Below, piece by piece: positions 7,505-30,335 of a DNA stretch of 64,000 nt. The position numbers and the translations under genes are program-made. Within the stretch, counting starts at the first letter, position 1. Each line of letters begins with the position of its first letter. Origin of the DNA: a virus; the IMG/VR virus record IMGVR_UViG_3300037010_003311, positions 162,658-226,657 of that record. One strand, written 5' to 3'. Under the pieces are notes generated by a model that saw only the letters and a list, made by a program, of their open reading frames with translations, was not told the DNA's origin and did no database searches.

Positions 7505-7505
7505 A

Positions 7506-8410: not shown

Positions 8411-9385
8411 TCAATAATTACATATACTAAATGTTAATAATTCGGAATCCGAAACATTTGAATTATCTATTTTTATTTCAGAAAGAATAGTTTCAATCTC
8501 TTTTATTTTAATAGTTTTTGTTTCGTTTTCGTAATGTATTTCTACTTCATCTTTATTTATAAAAAATGATGCTGATGGGTTATAGTTCAACGAGGTTTTA
8601 TCTAATTTCGAAGTATTGTACATATCAAATATTTTTTCTATATCGGAAAACTTATCGATAATAGGTTCCCGGCCATAATTAAGAAATTTAAAATTATCTC
8701 GAACAAAGTCGAAGCATTCTTTATAGCTTTTAATAAATGTTATAGTTTTATATATTTTGAACTTATTTAATACACTTGCTTCAGTAATATTAAATGGTTC
8801 AAAGATTCTATAATCGAACCCAATATTAATATAGATATTCTCTAAATTAAGAGTTTTTAAATACTCTAAAAATCCTAAATACTTTTTAGGATCTTCTGTA
8901 ACAACTAAATTCAAATTAACATAACCATAATATTTATATGTTGTTATAATATTTTGAATTATAAATTTTAGTGACCATCTTGGTCCGTTTGTACGTTCTG
9001 GGTCCTCGATATGTGGACTAATAACCATATCAACATTCTCTATTTTATAGAGCTCTTTAATTATAGTATTAAACTTTTTTATCGGTATTTCACCATTAGT
9101 GAAAACATAACCTTTATAATTTTCAATGACTTGTTGCTTATATCGCATTAGCTCAATAAAATATGGAGCTAATAATAGTTCACCACCAGCTTCCATAAAT
9201 ATTTTACCTTGCTTTGGCATTACATGATTAAAGTATGGTACTATATCGAAGTTTCCAGAATGGTTTTCGGTTATTGTATTATTTAGAAAATTATAACAGA
9301 AGTCACATTTTAAATTACATTCGGTGTACCACTCGACACATATAATAATATCATCTGGATCAATACTGATTCGGTGGGAACTCAT
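8411..9385 (-). CDS. Radical SAM protein 1, 324 aa
   Basis: The CxxxCxxC iron-sulphur motif is at Cys23, Cys27 and Cys30 (ECNLKCDFC), and AGGEL at 66-70 is the SAM-binding GGE motif. The central region has the alternating strands and helices of the partial TIM barrel. No extra cysteine cluster is seen at the C-terminus, so no SPASM domain. Such enzymes cleave SAM to a 5'-deoxyadenosyl radical. It overlaps the next upstream gene by one base (TAATG-type junction). The substrate is unknown. Confidence 0.85.
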   Translation of the reverse strand: MSSHRISIDPDDIIICVEWYTECNLKCDFCYNFLNNTITENHSGNFDIVPYFNHVMPKQGKIFMEAGGELLLAPYFIELMRYKQQVIENYKGYVFTNGEIPIKKFNTIIKELYKIENVDMVISPHIEDPERTNGPRWSLKFIIQNIITTYKYYGYVNLNLVVTEDPKKYLGFLEYLKTLNLENIYINIGFDYRIFEPFNITEASVLNKFKIYKTITFIKSYKECFDFVRDNFKFLNYGREPIIDKFSDIEKIFDMYNTSKLDKTSLNYNPSASFFINKDEVEIHYENETKTIKIKEIETILSEIKIDNSNVSDSELLTFSICNY

Positions 9386-9969
9386 TAATAATCCTTAATT
9401 ATAAACATCGGGTACTTAGGAGCTTTCATTTGGAAAGCATAATCAACTAAAAATTTTTTTTCATCTTCGAAATTATTAAGAAATGGTTTTTGTACAAAAA
9501 TATAATTATTAAAAATTAAAAAGGTATCTATCAATGGTACAATCCCAGTAGTTAAAACATGATCGAATAGTAGATCGGCAAACTTAATACCACAATATTG
9601 TTTAATAATCAAATTATCTTTATTTGGATAGTTCTTTATAAACTCTATAATATCTTGATCAGGTAAAGCGTTAGGATTTATTATGTTAGTATAATTATTA
9701 TTAATTTTATAGAAAAAGTTTTTATCCTGGATGCGTGGGGTAAATACTTCTAATTTAGTATGATCGCTTGCAACCTTAAAGCCATAATGTTCGTGAGCAA
9801 GAAGTGTACTAACTACATCAGACTGCTTGAAATCAAGAATCTTTTCTATAAGTGGTTCATAAAAGCCATAATCATCTAAAAATTCTTGAATCTTTCTAGT
9901 TTTAATATATTTAATTTTTTCTTCATTGCTAAAAATTTCATCACCTTTTATTTGAATAATATTTCCCAT
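9385..9969 (-). CDS. Unknown protein between two radical SAM genes, 194 aa
   Basis: No known family is recognised. The sequence is helical at the N-terminus and then mixed, with a single Cys. The ATG at 9969 is preferred because AGAGGT precedes it; the longer frame would overlap the next gene. It is placed exactly between two radical SAM genes, with one-base and ten-base junctions, which suggests it acts with them as partner, carrier or substrate. Confidence 0.65.
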   Translation of the reverse strand: MGNIIQIKGDEIFSNEEKIKYIKTRKIQEFLDDYGFYEPLIEKILDFKQSDVVSTLLAHEHYGFKVASDHTKLEVFTPRIQDKNFFYKINNNYTNIINPNALPDQDIIEFIKNYPNKDNLIIKQYCGIKFADLLFDHVLTTGIVPLIDTFLIFNNYIFVQKPFLNNFEDEKKFLVDYAFQMKAPKYPMFIIKDY

Positions 9970-9979
9970 ATTAATACCT

Positions 9980-10828
9980 CTAATTTTCCCAAAACTCATT
10001 ATCAAAATAACAAAAATTATTATGACATTGAGATATTATATATTCGTTACCACTAAAATTAAATTCCGAAAGTTTGATGCCAGTTTTATTAGTAAATATA
10101 TCATTAAAACATTTATATACTACATTATCCTGAATAAATAAAACGAAATTTTTAATATGGCACCGTTTATTAAAACTAGAGGTATTATTTTTCCATATTT
10201 CATAATTACTTAATTTATTAAACCGATGCGGTATAAATGCCCAATCATTTTTTAAATACTTAAAATTTTTATCTTGTTCCAAAGAAACTAAATGTTTACT
10301 ACTTGGACTAGCATCAAGTTTTTTTGGTAATAATGGATAGTATTGAACTTTGTCTTTATAAATCAATTTTAACTTTTTATATAATTCGATATTTGACCGA
10401 GGTAGATCCATTATGGAGATTTCGTTAAGATTTGAACTAAATGTATTAATTGTTTTTAGTAGTTCAATAAATTTAGTTTCAGTATAATGAAAAGAGTAAT
10501 TTAATTTTATATCAGGGTATGATGCTACGGCTGCTTCGACTACCGCGGGGTTAGAACCATTAGTCTGCAAAATTATAGAACCAAAGTAACTTTTAGCTAA
10601 TAGTATTAAATCTATAAGTTCTGGGTGCAAAGTAGGTTCGCCTCCAAATATAAATAAAATATTATTATCAATACCTGATTCTTTAACCCTAAGTTTATCG
10701 AAAAAATTTTTTAGATTCAAGAAATCTATTTTTGTATAGTCTATAGATGATTCAAGCGATTTATGCATATCCTCACAATACGGACAATTGTAATTACAAC
10801 TTTCAATTAATCGGTACTCTATTTTCAT
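9980..10828 (-). CDS. Radical SAM protein 2, 282 aa
   Basis: The CNYNCPYC motif begins at Cys11, and FGGEPTLHPE at about 61-70 is the GGE motif. A C-terminal set of cysteines (RCH..., YKCFND, QCHNNFCYF) suggests a short auxiliary-cluster (twitch or reduced SPASM) domain. The radical SAM motif is very close to the N-terminus. The start overlaps the previous gene by 26 nt. The auxiliary cluster points to a peptide or large-substrate enzyme, but the substrate is unknown. Confidence 0.87.
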   Translation of the reverse strand: MKIEYRLIESCNYNCPYCEDMHKSLESSIDYTKIDFLNLKNFFDKLRVKESGIDNNILFIFGGEPTLHPELIDLILLAKSYFGSIILQTNGSNPAVVEAAVASYPDIKLNYSFHYTETKFIELLKTINTFSSNLNEISIMDLPRSNIELYKKLKLIYKDKVQYYPLLPKKLDASPSSKHLVSLEQDKNFKYLKNDWAFIPHRFNKLSNYEIWKNNTSSFNKRCHIKNFVLFIQDNVVYKCFNDIFTNKTGIKLSEFNFSGNEYIISQCHNNFCYFDNEFWEN

Positions 10829-11939
10829 TTGGCCCTCTATTTTTTACTTTTAGTGTTTTTAGTAAACCATCGCAGAAGCACCCATTATGAGGGCAACACT
10901 TAGGAATAATAGCTTTAATATTTTTGAAAAAATTAAAATTTGTAGTAAGATCAGCCCGTATATTAAAACAAAATTGTTTTACTTCTCCACGAAAGTTAAT
11001 TTCATAATTATTATTATAACAATCCCAACCTTTAAAATGTGCAAATTTTTTAGAATAGATATCATAATCATTTAATAATAGTGGAGTCTCTATATCTGGT
11101 TCGGACCAATAGATAATATTTGGTTTATATAAAGCCTCTTGTTCTAGGTACTGGAATTCATTATAAAATTCTTCTGTATAATTATGTAGTTTATGCATAT
11201 CACCATCATCATATAAAAAATGTGGATGGATTTCTATCCCATTGGTTATCAATTCGCGAATTATATTCTTAATAAATGGCCAATATTTTTTATCTGGGTG
11301 CAGCATCACATTTACTTTATTTCTATAACCTTTATTTTGCATAGTTAAAATTTTATCAATGAACTGATTATATTTATCTATATATTCAAAATGAATGCTC
11401 CATAAAAAATATATTTTTGGACCACCCCTAGTATCATTAGAAGTTTGTTTTATAGAATTTTCATAATGATCAATATCTGGTAAAGATTCAAAGAACTCTA
11501 AAGGTTGGATGGAATTAGTAGTTATATATAGTCTAGAATCCGGGTGCCGGTTAATAGCTTTCCAACTTAATTCCATTAATTCCAAAAACCTAGGATGGAT
11601 GGTTGGTTCACCACCTTGGAAACCTAAAAATATTGGTAGGGTGCTGCGCTCTAAAGCCGCTATAACTAGCTTTTGCCGGTTCCAAGTATCTTGCTTATTC
11701 CATAAACCATCTGGGGAATATTGTTTAATTGCATAACAGTAAGCGCAATTCAGTTGACACTTAGTACTAACGTCCCAGTGGATATATAACCGGTTAACTT
11801 TATGAATATGTTCTACTGATATGGCTTCTGGAGCAGTCGATACAATATTTGTATTACCGTGACCCAATAGTTTAAATTCATTTAGTTTGTCTAAGATATC
11901 TATTTTTTCCATATTTAAGTAGTTCCATTTCATTTTCAT
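10803..11939 (-). CDS. Radical SAM protein 3 with C-terminal Cys cluster, 378 aa
   Basis: It has CQLNCAYC at 61-68 and FQGGEPTIHP around 108-116. The C-terminus carries DCYNNN, QFCFN and the dense CCPHNGCFCDG cluster, consistent with a SPASM-like auxiliary iron-sulphur domain. The first 50 residues are an N-terminal extension. The reported start (11939) overlaps the upstream gene by 62 nt; internal ATGs are possible. Enzymes of this architecture usually modify peptides or proteins. Confidence 0.86.
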   Translation of the reverse strand: MKMKWNYLNMEKIDILDKLNEFKLLGHGNTNIVSTAPEAISVEHIHKVNRLYIHWDVSTKCQLNCAYCYAIKQYSPDGLWNKQDTWNRQKLVIAALERSTLPIFLGFQGGEPTIHPRFLELMELSWKAINRHPDSRLYITTNSIQPLEFFESLPDIDHYENSIKQTSNDTRGGPKIYFLWSIHFEYIDKYNQFIDKILTMQNKGYRNKVNVMLHPDKKYWPFIKNIIRELITNGIEIHPHFLYDDGDMHKLHNYTEEFYNEFQYLEQEALYKPNIIYWSEPDIETPLLLNDYDIYSKKFAHFKGWDCYNNNYEINFRGEVKQFCFNIRADLTTNFNFFKNIKAIIPKCCPHNGCFCDGLLKTLKVKNRGPNENRVPIN

Positions 11940-12720
11940 AATTTATTTCTCTAAAGTTTTCTATTTCTAGTAGTGAGAGTTGACTCCAGTCTAAATCCTC
12001 TGAATAAGGTTTAAGTAGTCGTAGTTTAAAAATAGATAATGGGGTCTTTGTTAAATTATCAAAAAATCCATTTTTATTATATATATAATAATAAAAATTC
12101 TTAGATTTATATTCGTTTGATCCATTCCAATCATCAATAAAATATAAAATATCATATTGATTGAAAAAATTTATAAGTCGTTGATAATCTTTATTATTTG
12201 GATCAAGTATTGAAACTTCTAATATAGTATTTTTAGATTGTTTTAAATAATCTTGCAAGTCTAAAAATTTTGATTCAGTTTTAAGTTTCAATAATTCTGG
12301 ATGAATACTTATATTTAAAATTAGTAATATATTAGTATCTTTAAATATATCTATTACATACTTATAAAAACTTAAAGACCCTGAAAAATTTGTAGGTATT
12401 ACTAAACGAACAGCTTTGTCGGCAAACATATTCTTTATAAGATTAAGATATGGTATAACAGTATCTTTAAATAATGATAACTCTCCACCTTGTATAATTA
12501 AAAAGAATTGTTCGATCTCGTTTTTCTTACATTCTAATAAAAAGAATTTTAGATTATAAGTTAATGTTTTTAAATCAATAAGCTTTTTTTGTGAAGTTTC
12601 TGAACCCTGTGAACAGTAACTACAACTGAAGTTACAATAACTAGTTAATTCTATTGTTAGATTCACACTTTTTAATTTTGGGTTAATTTTTAACCGTTGT
12701 ATTATTGAGGAATCTTTCAT
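11878..12720 (-). CDS. Radical SAM protein 4, 280 aa
   Basis: It has YCNFSCSYCSQG with Cys29, Cys33 and Cys36, and IIQGGELSLF as the GGE motif near residue 79. It is short, and the C-terminal half lacks cysteines, so there is no auxiliary cluster domain. It overlaps the downstream radical SAM gene by 62 nt and the upstream glycosyltransferase gene by 38 nt. These long overlaps indicate compact, coupled expression. The substrate is unknown. Confidence 0.84.
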   Translation of the reverse strand: MKDSSIIQRLKINPKLKSVNLTIELTSYCNFSCSYCSQGSETSQKKLIDLKTLTYNLKFFLLECKKNEIEQFFLIIQGGELSLFKDTVIPYLNLIKNMFADKAVRLVIPTNFSGSLSFYKYVIDIFKDTNILLILNISIHPELLKLKTESKFLDLQDYLKQSKNTILEVSILDPNNKDYQRLINFFNQYDILYFIDDWNGSNEYKSKNFYYYIYNKNGFFDNLTKTPLSIFKLRLLKPYSEDLDWSQLSLLEIENFREINYENEMELLKYGKNRYLRQTK

Positions 12721-13342
12721 CTTTATTATGCTCCGGAAAACTTATATTATCTAAACCATCACATGTTTGGATAAACATTTGTTTTTTTATTAAGGTTATT
12801 TTGCCATCCGAGCCATCCACGGATTGTTTAAGTATTTGAAAAAGTTTCCAATCATTATCTAGGTGATTATTTAATAACTCAGATGGAAAACTAGGTAATA
12901 ATTCTTTTTTAAAAATAATTTGCGAAAGTTGGAATAAATCATTTGTAGTTTCTATTTTAAAATTATTTCTATAAGTTAGTTGTAGTAACCGATCTTCTAA
13001 TTTAGCCGGTTTGTAATTCATATAAATTAATGAAGAATCTAAAACTAAATGTTCAACAAAAGATGATGATAAATAATCATCGTCTTCTAAAAAGTAAATG
13101 TATTCACCACTAGCTAAATCAAATAAATGTTTATATAAATAACCTAAATTATTATTACTATAATATGAATATCTAATCGGGTAAGAATCGGAGTATATTT
13201 CCTGAATATCTTTACTATCGTTATTAACGAGAACTTCTATATTAAATGAAAATTTAAACTGTAAAATACTATTAATACACCGTTCAAATAACTTTGGTCG
13301 GTTATGAGTTAAAATCAATATGCTCAATTTGGGGATAGACAT
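12683..13342 (-). CDS. GT2-family glycosyltransferase, 219 aa
   Basis: It starts PKLSILILTHNRPKLFERC, the classical first strand and NR motif of GT-A family 2 enzymes. EVLVNNDS is the second nucleotide-binding strand, and YFLEDDDYL supplies the DXD-type metal site. The protein is short for the family and ends soon after the acceptor region (HLDNDWKLF). It transfers a sugar from a nucleotide donor to an unknown acceptor. It lies within the radical SAM cluster and overlaps both neighbours. RBS AAAAGGA precedes the ATG. Confidence 0.87.
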   Translation of the reverse strand: MSIPKLSILILTHNRPKLFERCINSILQFKFSFNIEVLVNNDSKDIQEIYSDSYPIRYSYYSNNNLGYLYKHLFDLASGEYIYFLEDDDYLSSSFVEHLVLDSSLIYMNYKPAKLEDRLLQLTYRNNFKIETTNDLFQLSQIIFKKELLPSFPSELLNNHLDNDWKLFQILKQSVDGSDGKITLIKKQMFIQTCDGLDNISFPEHNKDERFLNNTTVKN

Positions 13343-14357
13343 CTTGCTTTCCTTTTAATTGTTTTTCTATACCATCACATTCTTTAAACCATTTACATTT
13401 CATACACTCTTTTGGCTTATAATAAGTGTATTCTCTAGATCGTTTTGCTGCATTCCATCCTAATTCTAAAGACTCGGACCAAGTATATTGTTTATTATTA
13501 TCAAATTTATAATCTCCATTATAAACTTCTTTATTCCAATCAGTTGTATCAAATACGTGCTGAAACTGACCATAAACTAAATCTGTAAATTCCCCAGCAA
13601 AGCAAAAGGGCAAATACCGAATACGAATATCAAATTCTGGATAACTAACTTTAAGCTGGCGTATAGTATTCAAAACTGGAACACTAAGCTCTTCGTATTT
13701 AATTATGTTGGATTTTGCATTATCATCCCAATAATTATGAAATATGAAATTTACTTGTTTTAATCCAAACTTGATAAAATGGTATATTACTTGTAAAAAA
13801 CTATTATCTATACAATTACGGTTACTAGTTGTAATAGTGCAGTTAATACGGGTTATAATACCATTAGATAATGAATTGGTAATAGCTTTAACTAAGTTTT
13901 TATAAGCTCCTGGTTTACCAACTATTTCATCATGATAATGATCGGTACCATGCATACTGAATAAAATCTCTTTTAATCCATAATCTTTAGACTTAAGAAG
14001 GAAATCAAGATCTTTAAATTTTTGACCATGACTAAGAGTACTAACATGATCAAATCCTTCGTTACAATATTTTAAAATCCTAAACCAGTCTGGGTGAATA
14101 CTACTTTCTCCACCACTAAGTTCGATTTCTTTAATAAGGCTATAACTGCTAATATAATCAATACGGTCTTTAATAATTTTAAAATTATCCATCTTATCTA
14201 AACGATCTTTATAATAACAGAATGTACAATTCAGATTACAAAGAGTTCCGGTATCCAATTTTGCTCGCTTACAAAGAGGGTTAGTTTGTTCGGACCATAA
14301 TGGATTAATTTCTGGCGTAGCAATTAAATTATAATTCATTTTATCCCTTTTTTCCAT
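13302..14357 (-). CDS. Radical SAM protein 5, 351 aa
   Basis: It has CNLNCTFC at Cys40, Cys44 and Cys47 and ELSGGESSIHPDW as the GGE motif at about 82-84. Near the C-terminus KECMKCKWFKEC forms a compact cysteine cluster like the end of a SPASM domain. It has AAAGGT before the ATG at 14357; a second in-frame ATG (residue 7) also has AAGGG. It overlaps the GT2 gene by 41 nt. The combination suggests modification of a peptide or of a sugar-carrying substrate. Confidence 0.87.
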   Translation of the reverse strand: MEKRDKMNYNLIATPEINPLWSEQTNPLCKRAKLDTGTLCNLNCTFCYYKDRLDKMDNFKIIKDRIDYISSYSLIKEIELSGGESSIHPDWFRILKYCNEGFDHVSTLSHGQKFKDLDFLLKSKDYGLKEILFSMHGTDHYHDEIVGKPGAYKNLVKAITNSLSNGIITRINCTITTSNRNCIDNSFLQVIYHFIKFGLKQVNFIFHNYWDDNAKSNIIKYEELSVPVLNTIRQLKVSYPEFDIRIRYLPFCFAGEFTDLVYGQFQHVFDTTDWNKEVYNGDYKFDNNKQYTWSESLELGWNAAKRSREYTYYKPKECMKCKWFKECDGIEKQLKGKQDVYPQIEHIDFNS

Positions 14358-14369
14358 TAATAATACCTT

Positions 14370-14419
14370 TGTGTAGATAATTGATTTTTCTCTTAAAGAT
14401 AGTAGTTACTCTACACAAT
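14370..14419. repeat. Short inverted repeat between radical SAM 5 and GT-B-like gene
   Basis: TTGTGTAGA and its reverse complement TCTACACAA flank about 30 nt in the short gap upstream of the radical SAM 5 start. It could be a weak terminator or leader structure. Confidence 0.35.
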
Positions 14420-14422
14420 TCG

Positions 14423-15409
14423 TTATTTTTTACCAAGAATTTGTCTTATCGTTTCGATAATTATATCCGAATCATCCAAATATAAGCTATCGAAATTATT
14501 TTCTATATCCCATTTTCTAACCATCAGACCAGTGTCGATTTTTAAATAATCTTCGTCAATATCATTATCGTAAATTACTGGAATACCAAAATATTTACAT
14601 TCCGCAATCATACGAGGACTACAATCCCATTTACGATCTATTGGTGTATAGATATATGCTGACATAATTTCAAAAATATTATGGATTGGTACTACTCTAT
14701 AGCAAACTTGTTTATCAATAATAGGATTATCAAGTAAAGGGCTCTCTTTATTAATAAGAATAAGTAAGCGTTCGTGGTTATTCAAATTAGATAAATGTTT
14801 TTTAATAGTACAATTATCGATCAGTTTACAATTACTCGTAGCATATAATATTACATTCTTTGGTAATTGACTTTCCATATGATTAAAGCTATCAGTTTTT
14901 AATATTGGATTTAAAGCATTAAAGTTTAATTTTTTAACATAATTAAGTTTCTTTGCATTGAGTGGTAATTTATAATTTAATCGTTCATCCACCATAAATA
15001 ATATTTTATCAATTAAGTTATTATACAACTGGAACTTGGAGTAATCTCTAGTCCCACATGGAAATAAAATCAAACCTTTTACATTATATATATTTACCTC
15101 ATTAAGTAAACCATCGGTAAAAATTAGAATGGAGTTAGGACAATTATAAATTCTTGGCCTACTAAATTTAATTTTTAAATCTTTTACTAAATTTGGATCA
15201 TACTTAGATAATGCTATTTCCATTTCTTCTTTACTAATATCCTCACCAAAAACTATTTCAACTTTATAATATTTATTTAGTAAGATATAATATTCGATTA
15301 CTTCAAAAAAATGGCCACAAATTCCATGTTTATTATCATGACTACTATAAGTAAGTATTACTTCTGCATCCGAAGTAAAAGCCAATTGCTTTTTAATTTT
15401 ATTTTCCAT
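14423..15409 (-). CDS. GT-B-like glycosyltransferase-type protein, 328 aa
   Basis: The C-terminal third has RKWDCSPRMIAECKYFGIPV followed by an acidic strand and a D-rich tail (YLDDSD). The layout resembles the donor-binding domain of GT-B enzymes, where a conserved Pro-Arg-x-x-x-Glu helix contacts the nucleotide sugar. The N-terminal half (HDNKHGICGHFFEVIEYY) would be the acceptor domain. The protein at 18417-19259 has a similar organisation with NNRLIPEAKFY. The assignment rests on the fold pattern only. It overlaps the next upstream radical SAM gene by 11 nt. Confidence 0.55.
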   Translation of the reverse strand: MENKIKKQLAFTSDAEVILTYSSHDNKHGICGHFFEVIEYYILLNKYYKVEIVFGEDISKEEMEIALSKYDPNLVKDLKIKFSRPRIYNCPNSILIFTDGLLNEVNIYNVKGLILFPCGTRDYSKFQLYNNLIDKILFMVDERLNYKLPLNAKKLNYVKKLNFNALNPILKTDSFNHMESQLPKNVILYATSNCKLIDNCTIKKHLSNLNNHERLLILINKESPLLDNPIIDKQVCYRVVPIHNIFEIMSAYIYTPIDRKWDCSPRMIAECKYFGIPVIYDNDIDEDYLKIDTGLMVRKWDIENNFDSLYLDDSDIIIETIRQILGKK

Positions 15410-16217
15410 TATTATTCCAGTTTTGTTTACATATATTAAAGTTTTTTAAACTATTAATTGTTGGCTGAAATTGATTAGAACTAAATGAGGTACATGTTTT
15501 GCATATATCTGGAGTGATACCATCTTTAAAATCTTTAAATAATTTATATCGTTTACCATCTAAATAAAGATCTTTAAAATTGGTTTTATAAATATTTCCA
15601 AGTATAGCATCTTTAGTGAGATCGGTTGGTTCTCCGGAACAAGTGCAATAATTGAAATCACCATTTGATAAAATTCGTGGTACCCATAGATTTGAACACA
15701 CTCCAGTTATTTTTGGAACATTTATTCGGGATTGAGTTTCACAATCATAATCATAAAATCTGTTCCGATTACTTAATTCGATATTGATACCATATTGTTT
15801 TGCAAGTTGAATATTTTCTTCAATCTTATAAAAAAATTTATCCTTAGCTCTTGTCTGGTATTTAAATTCTTCTATCCCATCGCATCCATAATGAGAAACA
15901 TGAATTTTTAATTTTTTTAAATTAATACCATTCGTAGTTAACTTATCGAAATTTATTTTAGAAAAATTTGTATGAAATTCAATTGTTTTAAGATTTGAAT
16001 TGGTGAATAATTTTAGAATTTCATATATATCTGGGTGCAAAAATATTTCACCTCGACTTGGAGTTAATTTTAAATATGTTATTTTTAGTTCATTGATATC
16101 TTTAATTAAAGTTTTGATTGTGTCGAGGTTAATTATTTCTAATGGTTCTTTTGTATTACCCGCCCCACAAAAATAGCACTTAAAATTACACTGATTAATG
16201 ATCTCAATTGCCAACAT
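15399..16217 (-). CDS. Radical SAM protein 6 with SPASM-type C-terminus, 272 aa
   Basis: It has CNFKCYFC at Cys10, Cys14 and Cys17. The GGE motif is altered to SRGE near residue 54-57. The C-terminal part has GVCSNLWVPRILSNGDFNY-CTC and later ICKTC, the typical order of a SPASM domain that binds auxiliary clusters. It resembles the small SPASM enzymes that act on peptides or on sugar-type molecules. It overlaps its upstream neighbour by 14 nt. Confidence 0.88.
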   Translation of the reverse strand: MLAIEIINQCNFKCYFCGAGNTKEPLEIINLDTIKTLIKDINELKITYLKLTPSRGEIFLHPDIYEILKLFTNSNLKTIEFHTNFSKINFDKLTTNGINLKKLKIHVSHYGCDGIEEFKYQTRAKDKFFYKIEENIQLAKQYGINIELSNRNRFYDYDCETQSRINVPKITGVCSNLWVPRILSNGDFNYCTCSGEPTDLTKDAILGNIYKTNFKDLYLDGKRYKLFKDFKDGITPDICKTCTSFSSNQFQPTINSLKNFNICKQNWNNNGK

Positions 16218-19259: not shown

Positions 19260-19905
19260 AACCAGCTTTTGATATCCAATCTTTTTTAAATCTATTATAA
19301 ATCTCAGTTGATTCTTCCAATGTATCAGCGTCACGAATCTCATTTTTTAGTTTACAATAATTATCGTATGCGGCAAACGCTCTAGATATTTCATCCTTAT
19401 TCATTAGATACTTTTCTAGAAGATCAATAAGTTCATCATTTTCTTTTTCTAATATTTCAATATACTTTTCTTCTTTATTTGCATCAGTAATAAAATAACC
19501 TTGTTCCATAAGACTATTATTTAGTACTATAAATTCATAATAGGTAAGATTTGCAACTGTATTAATTTTTTGATCAAAGAATCTTTCTGCTTCAAGTAAT
19601 ATGTTTTGCTTCGCTTGTTCAAGCAATACATCAACGTGTATCTCTGGTAAAGAATCTTTTACAACTATATCATATGGCTCGAGTTTTGTTAAACCTCTAA
19701 ATTCGGTTATCAATACCGCTTTATCAAGTTTTAGGTATTTGTCTACTTTTGTAGCACTTGCTTTAGTTAATGGTGCAATCCTATACCCAATATCATAATC
19801 CTTAAGTTTACTACTAGTTTGATCAATGATTTCGATTATTTGATATAGGCCAATCTGTATTTTTTTACATAATGCAAATTTTGCTGCATTTTGATTTTTT
19901 TCCAT
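19246..19905 (-). CDS. Hypothetical protein with C-terminal coiled coil, 219 aa
   Basis: An alpha/beta N-terminal half is followed by a strongly helical C-terminal half (EEKYIEILEKENDELIDLL) that looks like a coiled coil. The ATG at 19905 follows AAGGA and gives a 41-nt overlap with the endonuclease gene. Its place just after a tail-protein/endonuclease pair could fit a fibre accessory or assembly factor, but I see no specific match. Confidence 0.6.
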   Translation of the reverse strand: MEKNQNAAKFALCKKIQIGLYQIIEIIDQTSSKLKDYDIGYRIAPLTKASATKVDKYLKLDKAVLITEFRGLTKLEPYDIVVKDSLPEIHVDVLLEQAKQNILLEAERFFDQKINTVANLTYYEFIVLNNSLMEQGYFITDANKEEKYIEILEKENDELIDLLEKYLMNKDEISRAFAAYDNYCKLKNEIRDADTLEESTEIYNRFKKDWISKAGYVSI

Positions 19906-21211
19906 TCGAATTTTCCTTAATTTTAATTTTACCAGCGTTCCATAAGGCGCGGGTTTTGTGCACCATCCGGCTTTCTGGTTCAAGTATTTTATAATCTACA
20001 CCAAGTGGATAGCAACCAGAATCCAAGTCATATATATCTATCACAGTGTCTGGATCATAAGCTATAAATTTATCTATTTGCTCTTTCCAATTGCTTAAGT
20101 TTATATCTTCATATAACTGAAGCAACCGAATACCGGCCTCTAAGCAGGCTAAAGCTTTTCGTTGGTGTCGGTACTTACAAAAATCGTAATCTAGTTGTTG
20201 TGAGCTGATCCCTATGGTTTCGTGGTAGCTATGCCAATAACTACCATTCCATTCTATTGCCAATTTTAAGCTAGGTATCCAAATGTCTAGCTCCTGATTT
20301 GGTATTATGGTCCGTTCATTTGCTACCGCTGGAACACCTAAGCTTTCTAAATATGGTATTATAGCTTGTTCCTGTAAACTAGTTGCTGCGGTCTTGGTAT
20401 ATTTTATACCAAGTTTTTTAATTTGGGTATGGGTAGCTGGTTGTTCACAATTAAAATAATCCATACATGTTATATAATCAAAATAATTATCGTTTGTTAT
20501 AAAATTTCTTTTCCAGAATTCGATATCGTTCCAATATTTAGCATTAGTATAATGTTTACGTTTTGGATTACTTACCCCATATTTTTCGATATTATTTTTA
20601 ATCATCTTTTCTTTAATATCTTTATTTTGTAAAGGTTTTGATACACCATACTTAATTAAACTTGATTCCTGTTGTTTACGTTTAATTTCTGAATTAGAAT
20701 TTGGACTTTTGGTACCATATTTTTCGATATTATTTTTAATCATCTTTTCTTTAATTGCCGGATGTTGCATAGAAGTTGTATAACCATATATTTGTAAACA
20801 AGCTTCTTGTTGCTTACGCTTAATTTCCGGGACCGAATTCGGGCTGCTGGTACCATATTTTTTAATACTGTTTTGAACCATTTTTTCTTTAACCACTAAA
20901 CTTTGAATAGGGTTTTCGACACCAAATCTATCTAAACTAGTTTGTTTATATTTTATTTTTCTTAATCTAATTATTTCCGGCCTCATTATATTATAGCATT
21001 CGGTTGAACAACAATATTTGAGCCCAGATTTTGTAGTACCTTTCGATTTCAAATTTTTACAATCCTGATTTAAACACTTTATATTTTCTAAAGTTAACTC
21101 AAATTTTAATTGATATTTTACTATAAAATTTAATTGTCGGATTGTTAAATTTTTTGCTTCTGGATACGCATCTTTAATTAATTCTGGGGTTAATTTATGT
21201 TTCTGTAACAA
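19865..21211 (-). CDS. Vsr-fold homing-type endonuclease (EDxHD-like), 448 aa
   Basis: A Cys-rich zinc-finger-like segment (CLNQDC...CCSTEC, residues about 46-75) is followed by tandem repeats of the type IKEKMIKNNIEKYG..(S/P), which occur in phage homing endonucleases as DNA-binding modules. The C-terminal domain has NQELDIWIPSLKLAIEWNG-SYWHS and a later CKYRHQRKALAC helix, as in the Vsr-like EDxHD homing endonucleases. The start is a TTG at 21211, 3 nt from the preceding stop, since an in-frame stop lies just upstream. It is probably a selfish free-standing element inserted behind the fibre-type gene. Confidence 0.8.
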   Translation of the reverse strand: MLQKHKLTPELIKDAYPEAKNLTIRQLNFIVKYQLKFELTLENIKCLNQDCKNLKSKGTTKSGLKYCCSTECYNIMRPEIIRLRKIKYKQTSLDRFGVENPIQSLVVKEKMVQNSIKKYGTSSPNSVPEIKRKQQEACLQIYGYTTSMQHPAIKEKMIKNNIEKYGTKSPNSNSEIKRKQQESSLIKYGVSKPLQNKDIKEKMIKNNIEKYGVSNPKRKHYTNAKYWNDIEFWKRNFITNDNYFDYITCMDYFNCEQPATHTQIKKLGIKYTKTAATSLQEQAIIPYLESLGVPAVANERTIIPNQELDIWIPSLKLAIEWNGSYWHSYHETIGISSQQLDYDFCKYRHQRKALACLEAGIRLLQLYEDINLSNWKEQIDKFIAYDPDTVIDIYDLDSGCYPLGVDYKILEPESRMVHKTRALWNAGKIKIKENSNGKKSKCSKICIM

Positions 21212-21213: not shown

Positions 21214-22116
21214 TTAAACTCTATTAATTTTAGCTTCTAAGTCAATTACTTGTTTAGTTAAACTAGTTACTTGTTGCTTTAAGTTTTGGACTTCTGCTAT
21301 TAGTGGACCAATTAACTGTTGATAGTTTACCATATAATAACCATCTAAGTCTTGGGTTAAAGCCTCGGAATCGCGTAATTCGGTGTTTAAGAGGCTTTGA
21401 GCAATGATACCATAATGCTTTTGTGGTAGAGCCGTAACTTTATCCGCAGCTAGGTACTGGAACTTAACTGCTCGAACATTATCCAGAATGCCAGACTCGA
21501 GAGTCTGAATATTTGCTTTTAGTCTTTCATCCGAGTAGTTACAACCACAGTTACCATTACACGAGCATACTACGTTGCACTTGCAGTCTTGGTCACAACC
21601 GGATTGATTAATTACCGTATTATTTAAATTATCTATTATTGATCTAATGAAAGCCGCATTAATGATATCGGCGCCATCAGATTTATCTACTGGTGAGGCT
21701 GATAGTGTAGATGGTTGTTGCCAGGCATTTTGTAAAGCTTTGACTCGGTTAACTACATCTAACCATAACTGACCATAAACTATATGCTTATCAAATGGGG
21801 TCTGCCCATTCGCATCAAGATCGATAGTCTGCATCAGCCCTCCACCAAGATATGGTAAAGCATTACCAGCAGCATCGTGGAGAGGATTATTTATATATCT
21901 ATTAATCTCTTCGTTAACAACGTCTACCAATGTTTTAATTATATCGGTATCGTAAATAATATGTTGAGCTATTGGATTGCTATCATTTAAAGCCGAAAGT
22001 ATTGTTGCTGACGTTGGCCAATTTACAACTTGTGCGTCGTCAGACCCAGACCCTAAAGCATGTGCCGGGTCATGTGCATTTATATGGCATAAACCATTTG
22101 GTGTATTATCTGCCAT
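21214..22116 (-). CDS. Cys-rich tail-type protein with S74 self-cleaving chaperone domain, 300 aa
   Basis: Residues 1-170 form a polar helical region of unknown fold. Residues 174-192 contain seven cysteines (Cys174, 178, 180, 184, 186, 190, 192) separated by Asn, Gly, Asp and Val. NYSDERLK at 193-200 starts the intramolecular chaperone (S74) domain, which ends in a long coiled coil (residues 275-298). In this family the chaperone trimerises a fibre and cuts itself off at the Ser of SDxRLK (Ser195 here). Cleavage would leave the Cys-rich stretch as the C-terminal tip of the mature trimer. The start codon overlaps the stop of the radical SAM gene as TAATG, so the two are coupled. The protein is the likely substrate of the two SPASM enzymes; this is inference. 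Confidence 0.85.
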   Translation of the reverse strand: MADNTPNGLCHINAHDPAHALGSGSDDAQVVNWPTSATILSALNDSNPIAQHIIYDTDIIKTLVDVVNEEINRYINNPLHDAAGNALPYLGGGLMQTIDLDANGQTPFDKHIVYGQLWLDVVNRVKALQNAWQQPSTLSASPVDKSDGADIINAAFIRSIIDNLNNTVINQSGCDQDCKCNVVCSCNGNCGCNYSDERLKANIQTLESGILDNVRAVKFQYLAADKVTALPQKHYGIIAQSLLNTELRDSEALTQDLDGYYMVNYQQLIGPLIAEVQNLKQQVTSLTKQVIDLEAKINRV

Positions 22117-23426
22117 TAATTCTCCTTTAACATTTTATGTAGTATTCTATCTATACTACCAAAGCTTTTATAGAATATACAATTATTGAATTCATTATCG
22201 TTATTATATAGATTTTGTATCTGGGTGCTTGATGACTCGGGTATTTCGGATGTACTCTGGTTACCAGTTCTAGCTTTATTTAATGAATAGATAGCAGCTG
22301 GGCACATCGCACAATACGTAGCGGCACAATCCGTACAAACTGAGTTCAAATTTTCAACATTATAATTTTCAGCTATTTTATAACGTTCTAAGAAAGCTAC
22401 TATTTCATTGTATCCAGTTTCCATCAATGGCTCCATAAAATTTAAACTCATTTTTAAATCTTTGCTATCTTTAATATATAAAGAACCATGGCAGAAGTTT
22501 AATGAACCATCCACGTTAAGAGCAATAAGATTTGAACCAGCCGAACAATGGCTGCGATGACTAAGATTATTATAACCTGAGGTACCAGCCTTAAACCAAC
22601 TCATAATAAACGAATTATACTTTTTATAAAATTGGTATTCTTTTTTAACTATTTCCGTAATTGCGGTAGTAAAATGTTTTACTAACTCTAGTTTTTTATT
22701 TACCGGTAAAATATTAACATAATCCAATGTTGGTGAGTACTGTACATTAATATTCTTTAAATTTGGGTATTTAACCCGTATTAAATTGTCTATCTGATAG
22801 AACTCATCCCAAGTGTCGATTAAAGTATCTACCGTCTCTAGTGCTTGTAATGGTATCGTAGCTTTTAGGCTAAGAAAGTTCAAACCCGTAGTACCGGTAC
22901 TACCAGTATCACAATAATCTTTTACTATATTTAAAAAATTATTCAATACTTCCTTTTTAGTGGATGTCCCGGTTTTGGTTAACCGGTATTGATCATTAAT
23001 TACTTTACCATCATACGATACTTGGATAGTTAAACGATTTAGTATATCCAATGATTTAAAGTGATCCAGTATCCGGTTAAGGTTCTTTGCATTATAACCA
23101 TTTGTATAAATCATGAACTTAATACCATAATTTAGTTTAAAAGCGTTTGCTGCTCTAATTATGATATCTGGGTTAAGTGTAGGTTCTCCACCCCAGAATG
23201 TTATACATATGGAATCAAACCGCTCCATAAAGTAACTACTCCTTTGTAAAAATTTAATATTTTCAAAAATGGTCTCATAATCTGTAAGCTTGGTTCTATC
23301 AGTCTTTTCCCCCTCGAAGCAGTATGTACAAGCTAAGTCACATAATGCCGTGGTGGTAATCTCAAATACAAACTCTCTAAGTACTTTGGGTTCAGGTTGT
23401 ATGATTGATTCTACTATCTCTTTCAT
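22116..23426 (-). CDS. Radical SAM/SPASM maturase-like enzyme, 436 aa
   Basis: It has CDLACTYC with Cys29, Cys33 and Cys36, and TFWGGEPTLNPD around residues 77-88. The C-terminal third has HCSAGSNLIALNVDGSLNFC, then CTDCAATYCAMC and a last Cys in FNNC, the order expected for a SPASM domain with two auxiliary 4Fe-4S clusters. Its relatives install thioether, C-C or formylglycine modifications on ribosomally made peptides and proteins. The start overlaps the 100-aa gene by ATGA, and the stop overlaps the Cys-rich gene by TAATG. Confident as an enzyme class; the reaction is not known. Confidence 0.93.
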   Translation of the reverse strand: MKEIVESIIQPEPKVLREFVFEITTTALCDLACTYCFEGEKTDRTKLTDYETIFENIKFLQRSSYFMERFDSICITFWGGEPTLNPDIIIRAANAFKLNYGIKFMIYTNGYNAKNLNRILDHFKSLDILNRLTIQVSYDGKVINDQYRLTKTGTSTKKEVLNNFLNIVKDYCDTGSTGTTGLNFLSLKATIPLQALETVDTLIDTWDEFYQIDNLIRVKYPNLKNINVQYSPTLDYVNILPVNKKLELVKHFTTAITEIVKKEYQFYKKYNSFIMSWFKAGTSGYNNLSHRSHCSAGSNLIALNVDGSLNFCHGSLYIKDSKDLKMSLNFMEPLMETGYNEIVAFLERYKIAENYNVENLNSVCTDCAATYCAMCPAAIYSLNKARTGNQSTSEIPESSSTQIQNLYNNDNEFNNCIFYKSFGSIDRILHKMLKEN

Positions 23427-23725
23427 TTTAAATCATTTAGAAAGTTTTCTGCCATTTCCGTTAATTTGGAAAGATTAACATCCGGTTCGGACTCTATATT
23501 AGAAGACATTATAGATTCTAAAATGTCTTTCATCTGTTCAGGATCTATTCGGTAATCATTATCATCTACTTGCTTAAGTAACGCTTCCAAGGTACTCAGT
23601 AAAAACATATCTAAAGTGCGGTCTTCATCTTTTATATTAGCATACGCTAAAGCTATACCAACTGCGGCAAGAAAATACTTTTGATTTTTCTTTTTTTGTA
23701 ACTCTATTTCATTTAACGGTTTCAT
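23423..23725 (-). CDS. Small helical protein between two radical SAM genes, 100 aa
   Basis: A soluble helical protein with an acidic C-terminus. A short hydrophobic stretch (FLAAVGIALAYA) at about 18-29 is too short to be a clear membrane span. There is no cysteine. It is one base from the stop of the first SPASM gene and joined to the second by ATGA. It may bind or deliver the substrate in the manner of a RiPP recognition element, but the sequence alone does not show this fold. Confidence 0.7.
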   Translation of the reverse strand: MKPLNEIELQKKKNQKYFLAAVGIALAYANIKDEDRTLDMFLLSTLEALLKQVDDNDYRIDPEQMKDILESIMSSNIESEPDVNLSKLTEMAENFLNDLK

Positions 23726-23726
23726 T

Positions 23727-24869
23727 TTAACTCTCCATTTCTATTATTGTTTTTAGTTGATTTTTTATATTTGTATTTGTTGTACCCTGCGATATTATGG
23801 CTAAAGCGTACTGATTTAACCTTTTGAATATATTGCACAGGTTTTCTTCTGGTACGAAGTCGTTTGTGACAATCTGTGCTAAACAACCTTTATCACATAC
23901 ATTTTTAATACTGCATGCCTGGCAAGTAGGATTGTTTATAGCCTGGTCATAATCTTTGACTGTAAGTTTTTTATCCATGAAGGAGTTACATGAATATATT
24001 TCATTATCTGGTCCTATAAGTAACTTATTCGATGGGGTGGAATTATCAGAAACTGGTAGAACACCACAACTTGAAATACTAACTGATTTCATTTTGTAAA
24101 TTATATTTTTAACAATCCATTCCCGGAATATACTTGGTATTCTACCAGAATACATAGGGCTCAAAATAAATTGATATAATTCCAATAACTGCTGGAATAG
24201 TTCAGATACTGATTCATTATCCCAAATACCATTGTCGCGTACTAAAGTTAAATGTGGTTCTAAATTATAATTATCCTTAATCCATCTATAATTCTTTAAA
24301 ATAGATACCCGCTTAATACCAGTTGGATAAATCATTGTATGACAAAATGGTGCACAATACTTTAGTAAAGTTTTAAATTCTGGAGCCTGGTATTGTTCCA
24401 ATACCCTAGTATTACCGCGCTGTGGTCGCTGTATATCAGTCCATAAACCATCGAATGAAAATATGACTTGCACTGGAGACTTACGATATGTTTTGTCCGT
24501 TAATCGTTTTAAGTTTTCTTCCGTTGCTAGAAGCATATTACTGGGTAACTTATAATATACCTGATATGGTGGATGATCTGATGCCGAGAATAGTTCATCT
24601 AAACCATCTAGTATTTCTAAAATAAGATTGGTCTTCAATAATGGTTCTCCACCAAAGAAATCAATATATATTTTATTAGTATTTAAAACTTGGGTTGCTG
24701 GTTGCTTTGGATGGTTTAGCTTTTCTAAGTATTGTTGTATGAACTCTATGGTTCGATGAGGTTCAATTGCCTGGTGGTTGCTATTATCAAAATTATAACA
24801 ATAACTACAATTTAGATTACATTGTTTGGTTAGCATAATAGTTATATAAATATTTTCTTTCACGTACAC
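23727..24869 (-). CDS. Radical SAM/SPASM enzyme, first gene of the modification operon, 380 aa
   Basis: It has CNLNCSYC at Cys17, Cys21 and Cys24 and FFGGEPLLKT near residue 74. The C-terminal domain contains SCGVLPVSD, GPDNEIYSCNSF, CQACSIKNVCDKGC and a final LCNIF. This is a full SPASM cysteine set. The protein differs from the second enzyme of the operon, so each may carry out a separate step. A TATAGAAATA element lies about 30 nt upstream of the start, and the upstream fibre gene ends in a hairpin, so this gene opens a new transcription unit. Confidence 0.93.
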   Translation of the reverse strand: MYVKENIYITIMLTKQCNLNCSYCYNFDNSNHQAIEPHRTIEFIQQYLEKLNHPKQPATQVLNTNKIYIDFFGGEPLLKTNLILEILDGLDELFSASDHPPYQVYYKLPSNMLLATEENLKRLTDKTYRKSPVQVIFSFDGLWTDIQRPQRGNTRVLEQYQAPEFKTLLKYCAPFCHTMIYPTGIKRVSILKNYRWIKDNYNLEPHLTLVRDNGIWDNESVSELFQQLLELYQFILSPMYSGRIPSIFREWIVKNIIYKMKSVSISSCGVLPVSDNSTPSNKLLIGPDNEIYSCNSFMDKKLTVKDYDQAINNPTCQACSIKNVCDKGCLAQIVTNDFVPEENLCNIFKRLNQYALAIISQGTTNTNIKNQLKTIIEMES

Positions 24870-24896: not shown

Positions 24897-24906
24897 TATT
24901 TCTATA
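24897..24906 (-). promoter_or_regulatory. TATAGAAATA promoter-like element of the SPASM operon
   Basis: The minus strand reads CTATATTATAGAAATATTAAT, about 30 nt upstream of the first SPASM gene and downstream of the preceding terminator hairpin. Confidence 0.45.
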
Positions 24907-24947: not shown

Positions 24948-24982
24948 CGACAGGAAAAGTGATTGGGCATAAAGCCCAATCT
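24948..24982 (-). terminator. Hairpin plus TTTTCCTGTCG box
   Basis: GATTGGGC/GCCCAATC arms (24961-24968 and 24974-24981) with a 5-nt loop follow the fibre stop codon at once. The conserved TTTTCCTGTCG box follows on the minus strand. Confidence 0.65.
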
Positions 24983-26994: not shown

Positions 26995-28347
26995 TTATGA
27001 TATACCTCTAAGATGTATCACAACGTTATTTACTATACCATTTGTAATACTAACAGCCAGGTCACTAATATTAGAGTCCTGTGCGGTGAATGTAGTTGAT
27101 ATCTTGTTAGCAAACATTTCAACCTTACCAGCATCAGTTGCTTTATCGTCATTAAGGTAAGACCCAACTAAAAAGAATCCTGCTCCAATAGCAACGGAAA
27201 GACCAAAGCCATCACTAGCTGCTGGGGTATTACCGTAGATTGTTTTAATATAGTTACCACTAAGGTCAAACATTTCGACCTTGCCGGCATCAGTTGCTTT
27301 ATCGTCGTCGGCATAAGACCCAACTAAAAAGAAGCTATTACCAATAGCAACAGAAGCACCAAAGTTATCACTAGCTGCTGGAGCATTACCGTAGATTGTT
27401 TTAATATAGTTACCATTTAGGTCAAACATTTCGACTTTACCAGCATCAGTTGCTTTATCATCGTCTAGGTAAGACCCAACTAAAAAGAAGTTAGCACCAA
27501 TAGCGCACGAAACACCAAAACCATCACTAGCTGCTGGTGCATTACCATAGATTGTTTTAATATATTTACCATTTAGGTCAAACATTTCGACCTTGCCGGC
27601 ATCGGTTGCTTTATCGTCGTTAAGGTAAGACCCAACTAAAAAGAAGTTAGCACCAATAGCACACGATACTCCAAAACCATCACTAGCTGCTGGTTGGCTA
27701 CTATAGATTGTTTTAATATAGTTGCCACTAAGGTCAAACATTTCGACCTTGCCAGCATTAGAGCCTTTATCATCATTGGCGTAAGACCCAACTAAAAAGA
27801 AGTTTGCCCCAATAGCACATGATACACCAAAACCATCGCCGGTGGTTGGCGCATTACCATAGATTGTTTTAATATAGTTGCCATTTAGGTCAAACATTTC
27901 AACCTTACCGGCATCAGTTGCTTTATCATCATTAAGATTAGATCCAACTAAAATGAAGCTTGCTCCAATAGCAACCGAGAAACTAAAACGATCACCAGCA
28001 GCGGGAGCACTACTATAGATTGTTTTAATATATGCTCCAGTTGAAGCCTTATCTAAACTAGTGGTACTCACAACTTGTGCCTTTCCATTAATAACTAAAC
28101 TATTAGCCATTAAATCAGTAGCAACTGCTTGGTATACGTGCCAATTCGTCGGTATAAGATTTGGTGTTGCGACAAACGGTAAGTTAGCCCCCGGTATAGT
28201 AATTGCAGCATCAACCTCTAAAGGCAACTGGGGTGGTTGAATCGAATTATATAAGTCATTTAAGGTTTTGCCTTCCAATAACTGGGTATCCGGAACGGTT
28301 ACCTTATTACCTTGGATAGTTAAACCAAGCTTTTTAAAGGTATTCAT
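26995..28347 (-). CDS. Six-repeat beta-propeller fibre-type protein, 450 aa
   Basis: An N-terminal segment of about 110 residues is followed by six 52-residue repeats with the pattern YIKTIYGNAPAASDGFG, then hydrophobic strands (FFLVGS) and DDKATDAGKVEMF. The repeats are 70-95% alike and resemble FG-GAP-type propeller blades; six or seven blades would close a propeller. The start ATG at 28347 overlaps the preceding stop as TAATG. Likely an adhesive virion domain that contacts the host surface. The first part (SLVINGKAQV) looks like a short attachment region. Confidence 0.8.
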   Translation of the reverse strand: MNTFKKLGLTIQGNKVTVPDTQLLEGKTLNDLYNSIQPPQLPLEVDAAITIPGANLPFVATPNLIPTNWHVYQAVATDLMANSLVINGKAQVVSTTSLDKASTGAYIKTIYSSAPAAGDRFSFSVAIGASFILVGSNLNDDKATDAGKVEMFDLNGNYIKTIYGNAPTTGDGFGVSCAIGANFFLVGSYANDDKGSNAGKVEMFDLSGNYIKTIYSSQPAASDGFGVSCAIGANFFLVGSYLNDDKATDAGKVEMFDLNGKYIKTIYGNAPAASDGFGVSCAIGANFFLVGSYLDDDKATDAGKVEMFDLNGNYIKTIYGNAPAASDNFGASVAIGNSFFLVGSYADDDKATDAGKVEMFDLSGNYIKTIYGNTPAASDGFGLSVAIGAGFFLVGSYLNDDKATDAGKVEMFANKISTTFTAQDSNISDLAVSITNGIVNNVVIHLRGIS

Positions 28348-29390
28348 TATATTACCGCACCTGTCCATAAATTAAGTTGTACAGTATCAAGTATCTCATT
28401 AGTTGATATATCAAGTTCTCGAGTTGGGTTGATTACTTGTACCGGGAATGTAGTTACTGTACCAAACATTTCAACTTTACCAGCATTAGAACCTTTATCA
28501 CTATTTGGATAAGACCCAACTAAAAAGAAGCTAGTACCTGCAGCAATAGAACTACCAAAGTTATCACCTGCTGCTGGTGCATTACCGTAGATTGTTTTAA
28601 TATAGTTACCATTTAGGTCAAATATTTCAACCTTACCGGCATCAGTTGCTTTATCATCATCTAGGTAAGATCCAACTAAAAAGAAGTTAGGACCAATAGC
28701 AACTGAAGCTCCAAAGCCATCACCTGCGGCTGGTACATTACCATAAATCGTTTTAGTATAGTTACCACTAAGGTCAAACATTTCAACCTTACCAGCATCG
28801 GTTGCTTTATCATCATCTAAGTAAGACCCAACTAAAAAGAAGCTTGCCCCAATAGCAACAGAAATACCAAAACCATCACTAGCTGCTGGTGCATTACCAT
28901 AAATTGTTTTAGTATATTTACCAGTTAGGTCAAACATTTCAACCTTACCGGCATCGGTTGCTTTATCATCATCTCGGTAAGATCCAACTAAAAAGAAGTT
29001 AGGGCCAATAGCAACAGAAGTGCCAAAGTTATCACTAGCTGCTGGTGCATTACCGTAGATTGTTTTAATATAGTTACCACTAAGGTCAAACATTTCAACC
29101 TTGCCGGCATCGGTTGCTTTATCATCGTTAAAATTAGATCCAACTAAAAAGAAGTTAGTACCAATAGCAACTGAAGCACCAAAACTATCTCCCACTGCTG
29201 GGGAATTACTATAGATTGTTTTAATATAGTTGCCACTAAGGTCAAACATTTCGACCTTACCTGCATTAGAGCCTTTATCATCATTAGAATAAGACCCAAC
29301 TAAAATGAAGCTTGCTCCAATAGCAACCGAAGCTCCAAAGCCATCACCTACTGCTGGTTGGATACCATAGATTGTTTTTTTGTAAACACT
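27090..29390. repeat. Twelve 156-nt coding repeats in two adjacent genes
   Basis: Six copies lie in each of the genes 26995-28347 and 28347-30335, with strongly conserved blade sequences. The high DNA similarity allows recombination between copies, so blade number and order may vary between isolates. Confidence 0.85.
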
Positions 29391-30335
29391 ATCCACACTT
29401 GTACCATTACTTTGAGGGCTACCATTTACATAAACATTACCAGTTGCTGGTAAATTGTTTGCTATTACCTGATAACCATACCAGTCGCTTTGTCCAGTTG
29501 CTTGTAGTATAGTTGAACTTTTACGAGTTTCTGTGTAAAGGTGTGAGACTTCTGCGGCAGTAAGTACTCTATTAAATCTACGAATTTGATCAAAACTCCC
29601 TTGAGAAACTTGATTTGGTGTATTATCTATCGTAAATAGACCAGTACTATAAGTAGTTGATGTTGGCCAAGAACTGAGTGTAAATGAACCAACTAAATTG
29701 TTATTTAGATATACAGTTACAACTTTATTTGAAGCAACAGTAAATACTACATGGTTCCACTGATTATAAAGTGGTGTCCAACTAATGTTACCTACACTCG
29801 TGCTACTAGAACCACCTACACCAAAATTTAGAGAATTTGGTTGAAACCAGATTTGACCATACTGACTTTGACCATATCTTCCATTATCCATAAAACAAGT
29901 ATTATTTGGGGTATTAAACCATATACTAAAAGATTGTGCTACATTATATTGTATTACACCTAAGTCTACTTTTGAAGAATCGGAAATAGCTGTTATTGAT
30001 TTTGTACCAAACCTACCAGGGCTATAATTGACATTAGTTGCTACGCCATTATGGGCACCACTTGTGTCGTTAGTATTACCTTCAAATTGATACAAAGCTA
30101 CACATGAACCATCGTTAAAAACGTCAACTATACCACTTGTGTCTATAGTAGTTGTGAACGCCGAGTACGGTATTGTTGCCATACCATCTATATCGGCAGC
30201 AATATTTCTAGTACCATATTGTGCGGTTAAAGCGGTTTGGACTTCAGCGAAGCTCATACCATTGAACTTGCTCGAGTTGGCGCTAACCAAAACTCCATTT
30301 CTGGTGCCGAAACCTAAATCTTTAAAAAGTCCCAT
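28347..30335 (-). CDS. LamG-like plus six-repeat propeller fibre protein, 662 aa
   Basis: Residues about 80-270 resemble a concanavalin/LamG sandwich: VALYQFEGNTNDTSG at the start, a W-N-H-V-V-F motif and DQIRRFNRVLTAAEV at the end, a pattern typical of carbohydrate-binding sandwiches. The second half contains six 52-residue blades like those of the next gene. The N-terminus (MGLFKDLGFGTRNG) resembles that of the next gene (MNTFKKLGLTIQGN), suggesting a common attachment module. It probably binds surface glycans of the host. Confidence 0.8.
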   Translation of the reverse strand: MGLFKDLGFGTRNGVLVSANSSKFNGMSFAEVQTALTAQYGTRNIAADIDGMATIPYSAFTTTIDTSGIVDVFNDGSCVALYQFEGNTNDTSGAHNGVATNVNYSPGRFGTKSITAISDSSKVDLGVIQYNVAQSFSIWFNTPNNTCFMDNGRYGQSQYGQIWFQPNSLNFGVGGSSSTSVGNISWTPLYNQWNHVVFTVASNKVVTVYLNNNLVGSFTLSSWPTSTTYSTGLFTIDNTPNQVSQGSFDQIRRFNRVLTAAEVSHLYTETRKSSTILQATGQSDWYGYQVIANNLPATGNVYVNGSPQSNGTSVDSVYKKTIYGIQPAVGDGFGASVAIGASFILVGSYSNDDKGSNAGKVEMFDLSGNYIKTIYSNSPAVGDSFGASVAIGTNFFLVGSNFNDDKATDAGKVEMFDLSGNYIKTIYGNAPAASDNFGTSVAIGPNFFLVGSYRDDDKATDAGKVEMFDLTGKYTKTIYGNAPAASDGFGISVAIGASFFLVGSYLDDDKATDAGKVEMFDLSGNYTKTIYGNVPAAGDGFGASVAIGPNFFLVGSYLDDDKATDAGKVEIFDLNGNYIKTIYGNAPAAGDNFGSSIAAGTSFFLVGSYPNSDKGSNAGKVEMFGTVTTFPVQVINPTRELDISTNEILDTVQLNLWTGAVI

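Follow-up and report, generated by a model that had tools for sequence, protein, structure and literature searches.

Two SPASM radical SAM enzymes and a cysteine-repeat protein that may form a modified appendage tip, encoded in a conserved cassette of phages

In the CteB/SCIFF and PapB systems, a thioether-forming radical S-adenosylmethionine (SAM) enzyme with a CX3CX2C core and a SPASM domain of seven cysteines has the gene of its Cys-rich substrate, a short leader-core peptide, next door. QhpD, the quinohemoprotein amine dehydrogenase maturase, is also a SPASM enzyme, and the Cys-to-Asp/Glu thioethers that it forms are in a structural subunit and not in a natural product; this subunit of a bacterial enzyme has neither a Cys repeat nor an autocleaving chaperone. 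To our knowledge, modification by a radical SAM enzyme has not been described for any phage virion protein. The S74/CIMCD chaperones (T5 pb1, endosialidase and phi29 gp12) have in common the Pfam S74 domain, a Ser and a Lys five residues apart and a C-terminal coiled coil, with a beta-helix ahead of S74; in T5, cleavage occurs between Thr1263 and Ser1264 with the help of Lys1269 (PMC4690869). Here, we analyzed a window of 64,000 nucleotides (nt), bases 162658-226657 of the 226,657-base virus record IMGVR_UViG_3300037010_003311, in which an operon encodes two SPASM radical SAM enzymes (A and B), a small protein and a protein, hereafter the Cys-tip protein, that carries a Cys repeat in the place of the beta-helix.

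The firmest result, as far as sequence comparison goes, is the conservation of a cassette that joins a Cys-repeat tip protein and a small helical protein to two SPASM enzymes. With a probability of roughly 0.7, we regard it as a phage maturation cassette in which A and B modify a virion protein at its C-terminal tip, most likely by thioether crosslinks. The sequences themselves show that the operon exists, that it is conserved, that the Cys repeat is invariant and that the protein can be made to end at the tip in several interchangeable ways; from these we infer the modification and its chemistry, S74 cleavage, a trimer and a place in the virion. The four genes run on the minus strand from 24869 to 21214 in the order A, small protein, B and Cys-tip protein (Table 1). 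An earlier note on this DNA had described them as translationally coupled, and all four open reading frames (ORFs) and the ATGA and TAATG junctions are present.

The same note had placed seven cysteines directly before the sequence NYSDERLK, and the translation confirmed their positions (174, 178, 180, 184, 186, 190 and 192 of 300 residues), so that the last of them lies two residues ahead of the Ser195-Lys200 dyad. With seven cysteines in 19 residues, this cluster is the densest in the whole record (the runner-up has four), and by a binomial estimate about 5e-5 such clusters would be expected per genome. The proposed S74 chaperone was also borne out: Pfam S74 matched residues 195-241 above the cut-off (1.2e-07), and the Lys five positions after the Ser has the spacing of Ser1264/Lys1269 in T5 pb1. 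Residues 181-296 matched phage tail-fiber PHROGs, and the AlphaFold monomer model contains a helix at residues 265-299 with pLDDT (predicted local distance difference test) values of about 80-96. Pfam matches to PLAC8 and MbeD were below the cut-off and were set aside.

Searches with a single A or B protein found no relatives; the family was found by using two-sequence alignments with Campylobacter phage homologs as queries, and the B alignments yielded 22 and then 39 viral loci in IMG/VR plus 5 loci in prokaryote assemblies (loci are given L numbers below). The gene order of the window, which the earlier note had suggested looking for in other phages, recurs in further loci (L034-L038, L040, L046, L059-L061, L076 and L084-L090; L076 is a contig of a Bdellovibrionales metagenome-assembled genome, and the small gene in L038 and L084 had been missed by the ORF filter). 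In this window class, B and the Cys gene are 0-34 nt apart and the repeat is a hexamer, CxC[ND]xx. A second class (L039, L047, L063-L072 and L091-L098), which includes the Campylobacter Firehammerviruses, has another gene order and a heptamer, CxCNYCT. When the 51 B proteins were grouped at 70% identity, a Cys-rich protein (at least six Cys in 19 residues) was encoded in the locus for 20 of the 21 clusters, the window not counted, and an A-type gene was present in 45 of the 51 B loci, although common descent and similarity-based retrieval mean that these counts are not independent. The association of A, B and the Cys-rich protein spans about 20 phage lineages in IMG/VR, in agreement with the proposal that the substrate of the enzymes is encoded next door. 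Consistent loss of the Cys stretch from operons keeping both enzymes had been named as the outcome that would speak against this proposal; on the contrary, the Cys repeat was nearly always found beside A and B.

Conservation in the Cys-tip protein is highest in the Cys stretch. In 18 aligned S74-type proteins, which are 21-29% identical to that of the window, the cysteines, the CN and the Tyr before the Ser are invariant. Unlike the S74/CIMCD systems, this phage family can lack S74, split it into a stub and a separate ORF or, once, replace it by HINT. In homologs without S74 (L034-L036, L046, L061, L064, L068 and L076), a stop follows the last Cys within four residues (NYTQ, NYTA, NYS, NYG or NY), which fits a mature protein whose C-terminus is the tip. 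In L047, L069-L072, L125 and L149, 14 residues follow the last Cys, and the protein closes with a stub, SDxxxKxxIxx, in which the Ser and the Lys persist. For L047, L069, L072, L125 and L149, the remainder of S74 was found in an ORF of its own, which matches Pfam S74 beginning at position 16 (above the cut-off in L149, weakly in L069); at L069:12801-15631, four tandem tip proteins are followed by one such ORF. In L062:10782-11456, a HINT/intein-like domain comes after the Cys repeat (a match to Pfam PT-HINT at 3.4e-5, below the cut-off). On well-supported branches of the B tree, the stop, fused and split states switch at least 5-6 times while the Cys tip is kept, and the window protein falls in a group with 99/97 support that mixes fused and stop forms. 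To judge from these homologs, the S74 chaperone is dispensable.

A converse comparison was made among S74 proteins. A search seeded with Cys-S74 proteins gave 80 S74 loci, in 75 of which the S74 gene could be parsed, and a locus was taken as Cys-positive when at least four Cys lay in the 40 residues ahead of the cleavage Ser. Radical SAM genes were found in 18 of 18 Cys-positive loci (4-10 per locus) and in 0 of 57 loci without the Cys stretch; no p-value is attached to this result because the loci were retrieved by similarity, the average control locus is shorter and the Cys loci, which represent about ten B clusters, are related by descent. As for the five unparsed loci, Cys tips and radical SAM genes are both present in L085, L125 and L149 and both absent from L115 and L147. 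None of 562 ORFs in the control loci was as Cys-rich. The plain S74 loci serve as the control because a control search with QueE found nothing.

Both enzymes have the CX3CX2C, GGEP and auxiliary-cluster cysteines of SPASM maturases. In A these are CNLNCSYC, FGGEP and the SPASM cysteines CQACSIKNVCDKGC...C (CX2CX5CX3C), and in B CDLACTYC, WGGEP and CTDCAATYCAMC...C; the radical SAM and SPASM cysteines of B are invariant across 25 aligned sequences. A matched Pfam Fer4_12 above and Radical_SAM below the cut-off, as well as phrog_1802 (4.7e-25), and B matched Pfam Radical_SAM (5.2e-11). The best PDB match of the B family profile was the thioether-forming peptide maturase CteB (5wgg, 2.4e-26). An AlphaFold model of B (pLDDT 82, predicted template modeling score 0.85) gave CteB (3e-13), ChlB and anSME as top folds in Foldseek, and the nearest solved relatives of B, namely CteB, ChlB, anSME and SuiB, all have peptides or proteins as substrates. 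Among the named NCBIfam models, PapB is the closest to each enzyme, and QhpD is among the matches of both. Compared with CteB and PapB, the phage system has two divergent enzymes and a small helical protein. This small protein had no Pfam or NCBIfam match above threshold and no match to PqqD or the RiPP (ribosomally synthesized and post-translationally modified peptide) recognition element (RRE); its family alignment (A9) comprises 12 phage loci and Campylobacter phage F379_198.

Since the enzyme pair recurs beside a strict Cys-repeat protein, A and B probably cross-link or otherwise modify the tip, and thioether crosslinks are favored because CteB is nearest to B and the CxC[ND] repeat is conserved. 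This repeat suggests chemistry between Cys and the neighboring Asn/Asp. A and B would act on it near the C-terminus and install Cys-centered bonds, most likely thioethers from Cys to a neighboring carbon, for example of the conserved Asn/Asp, and the small helical protein may help to present the substrate. S74 would then fold the trimer and cut before Ser195, leaving a modified ...CGCNY as the C-terminal tip of the appendage. The Cys-tip protein is likely to be a virion protein because its S74 part matches those of tail fibers; tail-fiber genes with an autocleavage-like domain lie directly upstream of the operon in the window and in L040; a Mu/P2-like tail module is present in L050 (judged by eye); and repeat proteins in L053 and L079 have tail-fiber-like N-termini.

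Several observations weigh against this reading. In the AlphaFold model of the Cys-tip protein, pLDDT is below 50 over residues 170-193, and Foldseek with this model returned nothing significant. The helper Arg and Asp of T5 have no counterpart at the same spacing in the window protein, and S74 cleavage is not assured here because in T5 they sit in the beta-helix that the Cys stretch replaces. The NCBIfam scores of the two enzymes are far below the curated cut-offs (for PapB, 55.8 and 54.1 bits against 340), which places both outside PapB and the other SPASM equivalog families of NCBIfam. The one exceptional B cluster (L044 and L045, contig fragments of 10 and 29 kb) has no Cys repeat, and the loci counted above share descent and were retrieved by similarity. 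As to the RiPP-like tip proposed in the earlier note, the loci do combine a RiPP-like maturase with an adjacent conserved Cys-rich substrate, and the pairing of the enzymes with the Cys tip has broad comparative support; the strict label is unfit because there is no short precursor (the substrates have about 140-530 aa, with the repeat mostly C-terminal) and no recognizable leader or RRE, and no protease or exporter was found among the operon genes.

Three other explanations were considered. A and B might modify the Cys tip by epimerization, oxidation of Cys to formylglycine, C-C crosslinks or methylation, as anSME, EpeE and SuiB of the same structural neighborhood carry out such reactions and two different enzymes may perform two different reactions; we think this unlikely, since the thioether former CteB is nearest to B by both sequence and fold and the Cys-dominated substrate with neighboring Asn/Asp resembles those of Cys-Asp crosslinking maturases. 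Even less probable is that the tip stays unmodified, its Cys repeat binding metal or forming disulfides, and that A and B serve the adjacent sugar/glycosyltransferase island. Such an island, rich in radical SAM genes, does exist downstream (window 4389-16217; six radical SAM-like genes together with genes for a GT2 glycosyltransferase and for transketolase-like and epimerase-like proteins) and has syntenic counterparts downstream of the Cys gene in L034-L040. However, A, B and the Cys gene form one coupled operon, a B-type enzyme is still paired with a Cys repeat where there are few other radical SAM genes (L062, L066, L050 and the Campylobacter phages), and radical SAM genes are wholly absent from plain S74 loci.

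We would give a similarly low chance to the Cys-tip protein being a secreted phage product, that is, a toxin or exclusion factor of RiPP-like type that would fold with the help of a borrowed S74. Maturase-substrate gene pairs usually yield secreted peptides, and the main texts of two Campylobacter phage proteome papers leave the virion membership of the Cys-repeat protein unsettled, but neither a transporter nor a leader protease was seen among the operon genes, and the tail-fiber type of S74 and the tail-related neighbors and N-termini described above point to the virion. Modification of a virion tip by A and B thus remains the reading that we prefer. If it is true, folded viral appendages would join the substrates of SPASM enzymes, and crosslinking of protein tips could be genetically encoded. 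As for a wider generalization, the chances appear evenly balanced that there is a widespread, unrecognized class of phage appendage tips made of radical-SAM-modified Cys repeats and exposed by interchangeable self-processing modules, which would be fused S74, HINT, a simple stop codon or split S74, the last possibly shared in trans by several tip proteins. Such tips would be covalently hardened or chemically special points of contact with the host.

The closest named phage relatives of A and B are the Firehammerviruses CP220, CPt10 and IBB_35, and Campylobacter Firehammerviruses gave the only good tblastn matches among isolated phages. Their B homolog lies near tail genes, and a 534-aa protein with CLCDCNYCTCDCNYCTC repeats is encoded slightly upstream of it in the same 15 records. 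In CP220, the Cys-repeat protein CPT_0180 is close to the B homolog, as in the window, whereas A is at another locus. The genome paper on CP220 and CPt10 (2010) reported 11-12 radical SAM proteins, read as host-metabolism boosters, and described the repeat of the CPT_0180-type gene only as 21-bp DNA repeats (PMC2853527). Phage radical SAM genes have been counted in several papers (PMC2853527, PMC3322345, PMC5332604 and PMC12398825); searches of an open-access library, which covers few subscription papers or preprints, found none that tied such genes to Cys-rich tail or virion proteins. Some T4-like phages have large sets of radical SAM genes (about ten per genome), currently read as host-metabolism genes; tip modification would account for a part of them.

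Other Cys-rich proteins were also noted. The CxxC-repeat proteins of Firehammerviruses (L056-L058) look different and were not counted as evidence; at L057:16834-18271 (Campylobacter phage CP21), proteins consist almost wholly of CxxC repeats, with up to 10 Cys in 19 residues, and their length differs among related phages. CSYCSYC and TVxC repeats occur beside radical SAM genes in L079 (Mesosutterella porci NZ_JAKNCT010000022.1, a cultured isolate) and L053 (a viral contig). More distant radical SAM loci (L050, L051, L052 and L054) have CSCNATCYGY-type repeat proteins, and one such repeat sits within a long C1q/F5-8-like fiber protein. The gut contig MT837976, whose radical SAM gene is outside any recognizable phage context, was set aside.

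Table 1. Features of the operon region (window coordinates)
Feature	Position	Strand	Remarks
SPASM radical SAM enzyme A	23727..24869	-	380 aa, GTG start
Small helical protein, proposed enzyme adaptor	23423..23725	-	100 aa, begins one base past the A stop
SPASM radical SAM enzyme B	22116..23426	-	436 aa, ATGA overlap with the small-protein gene
Cys-tip protein	21214..22116	-	300 aa, TAATG junction with B; variable N-part, Cys repeat, S74 chaperone
Cys stretch CDQDCKCNVVCSCNGNCGC, residues 174-192	21541..21597	-	hexamer repeat CxC[ND]xx
S74 intramolecular chaperone	21214..21534	-	Ser195/Lys200 (Ser+5) dyad, C-terminal coiled coil
Promoter-like element TATAGAAATA	24897..24906	-	37 nt upstream of A
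Terminator-like hairpin	24961..24981	-	between the operon and the upstream tail-fiber gene

The operon had also been credited with a promoter-like element of its own. This stood in so far as TATAGAAATA is present at 24897 and is enriched on the minus strand of the whole record (22 copies minus, 5 plus, about 2.3 expected), with several copies 37-60 nt ahead of genes, but a sigma-70 scan of the operon region gave matches at chance level. Another intergenic motif, TTTCCTGTCG, is over-represented in the record (13 minus, 2 plus, 0.1 expected per strand). Perhaps the two are late promoter and terminator-linked elements. The terminase of the record is 26-27% identical to T4-type phage terminases (distant relatives only), and the contig with the best terminase match has no radical SAM gene.

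Directly after the Cys-tip gene, a DUF7487 protein (window 19865-21211), probably a mobile endonuclease and with related genes elsewhere in the record, parts it from the downstream genes that the Cys-tip gene adjoins in relatives. Two adjacent proteins with repeated FG-GAP units (window 26995-30335) are probable tail adhesins. Finally, three short proteins encoded at 61938-63451 have a common N-terminus, MNQIDLILENIRLGHINQLMLEATTP, and differing C-terminal parts, which are Gly-rich in at least two of them.

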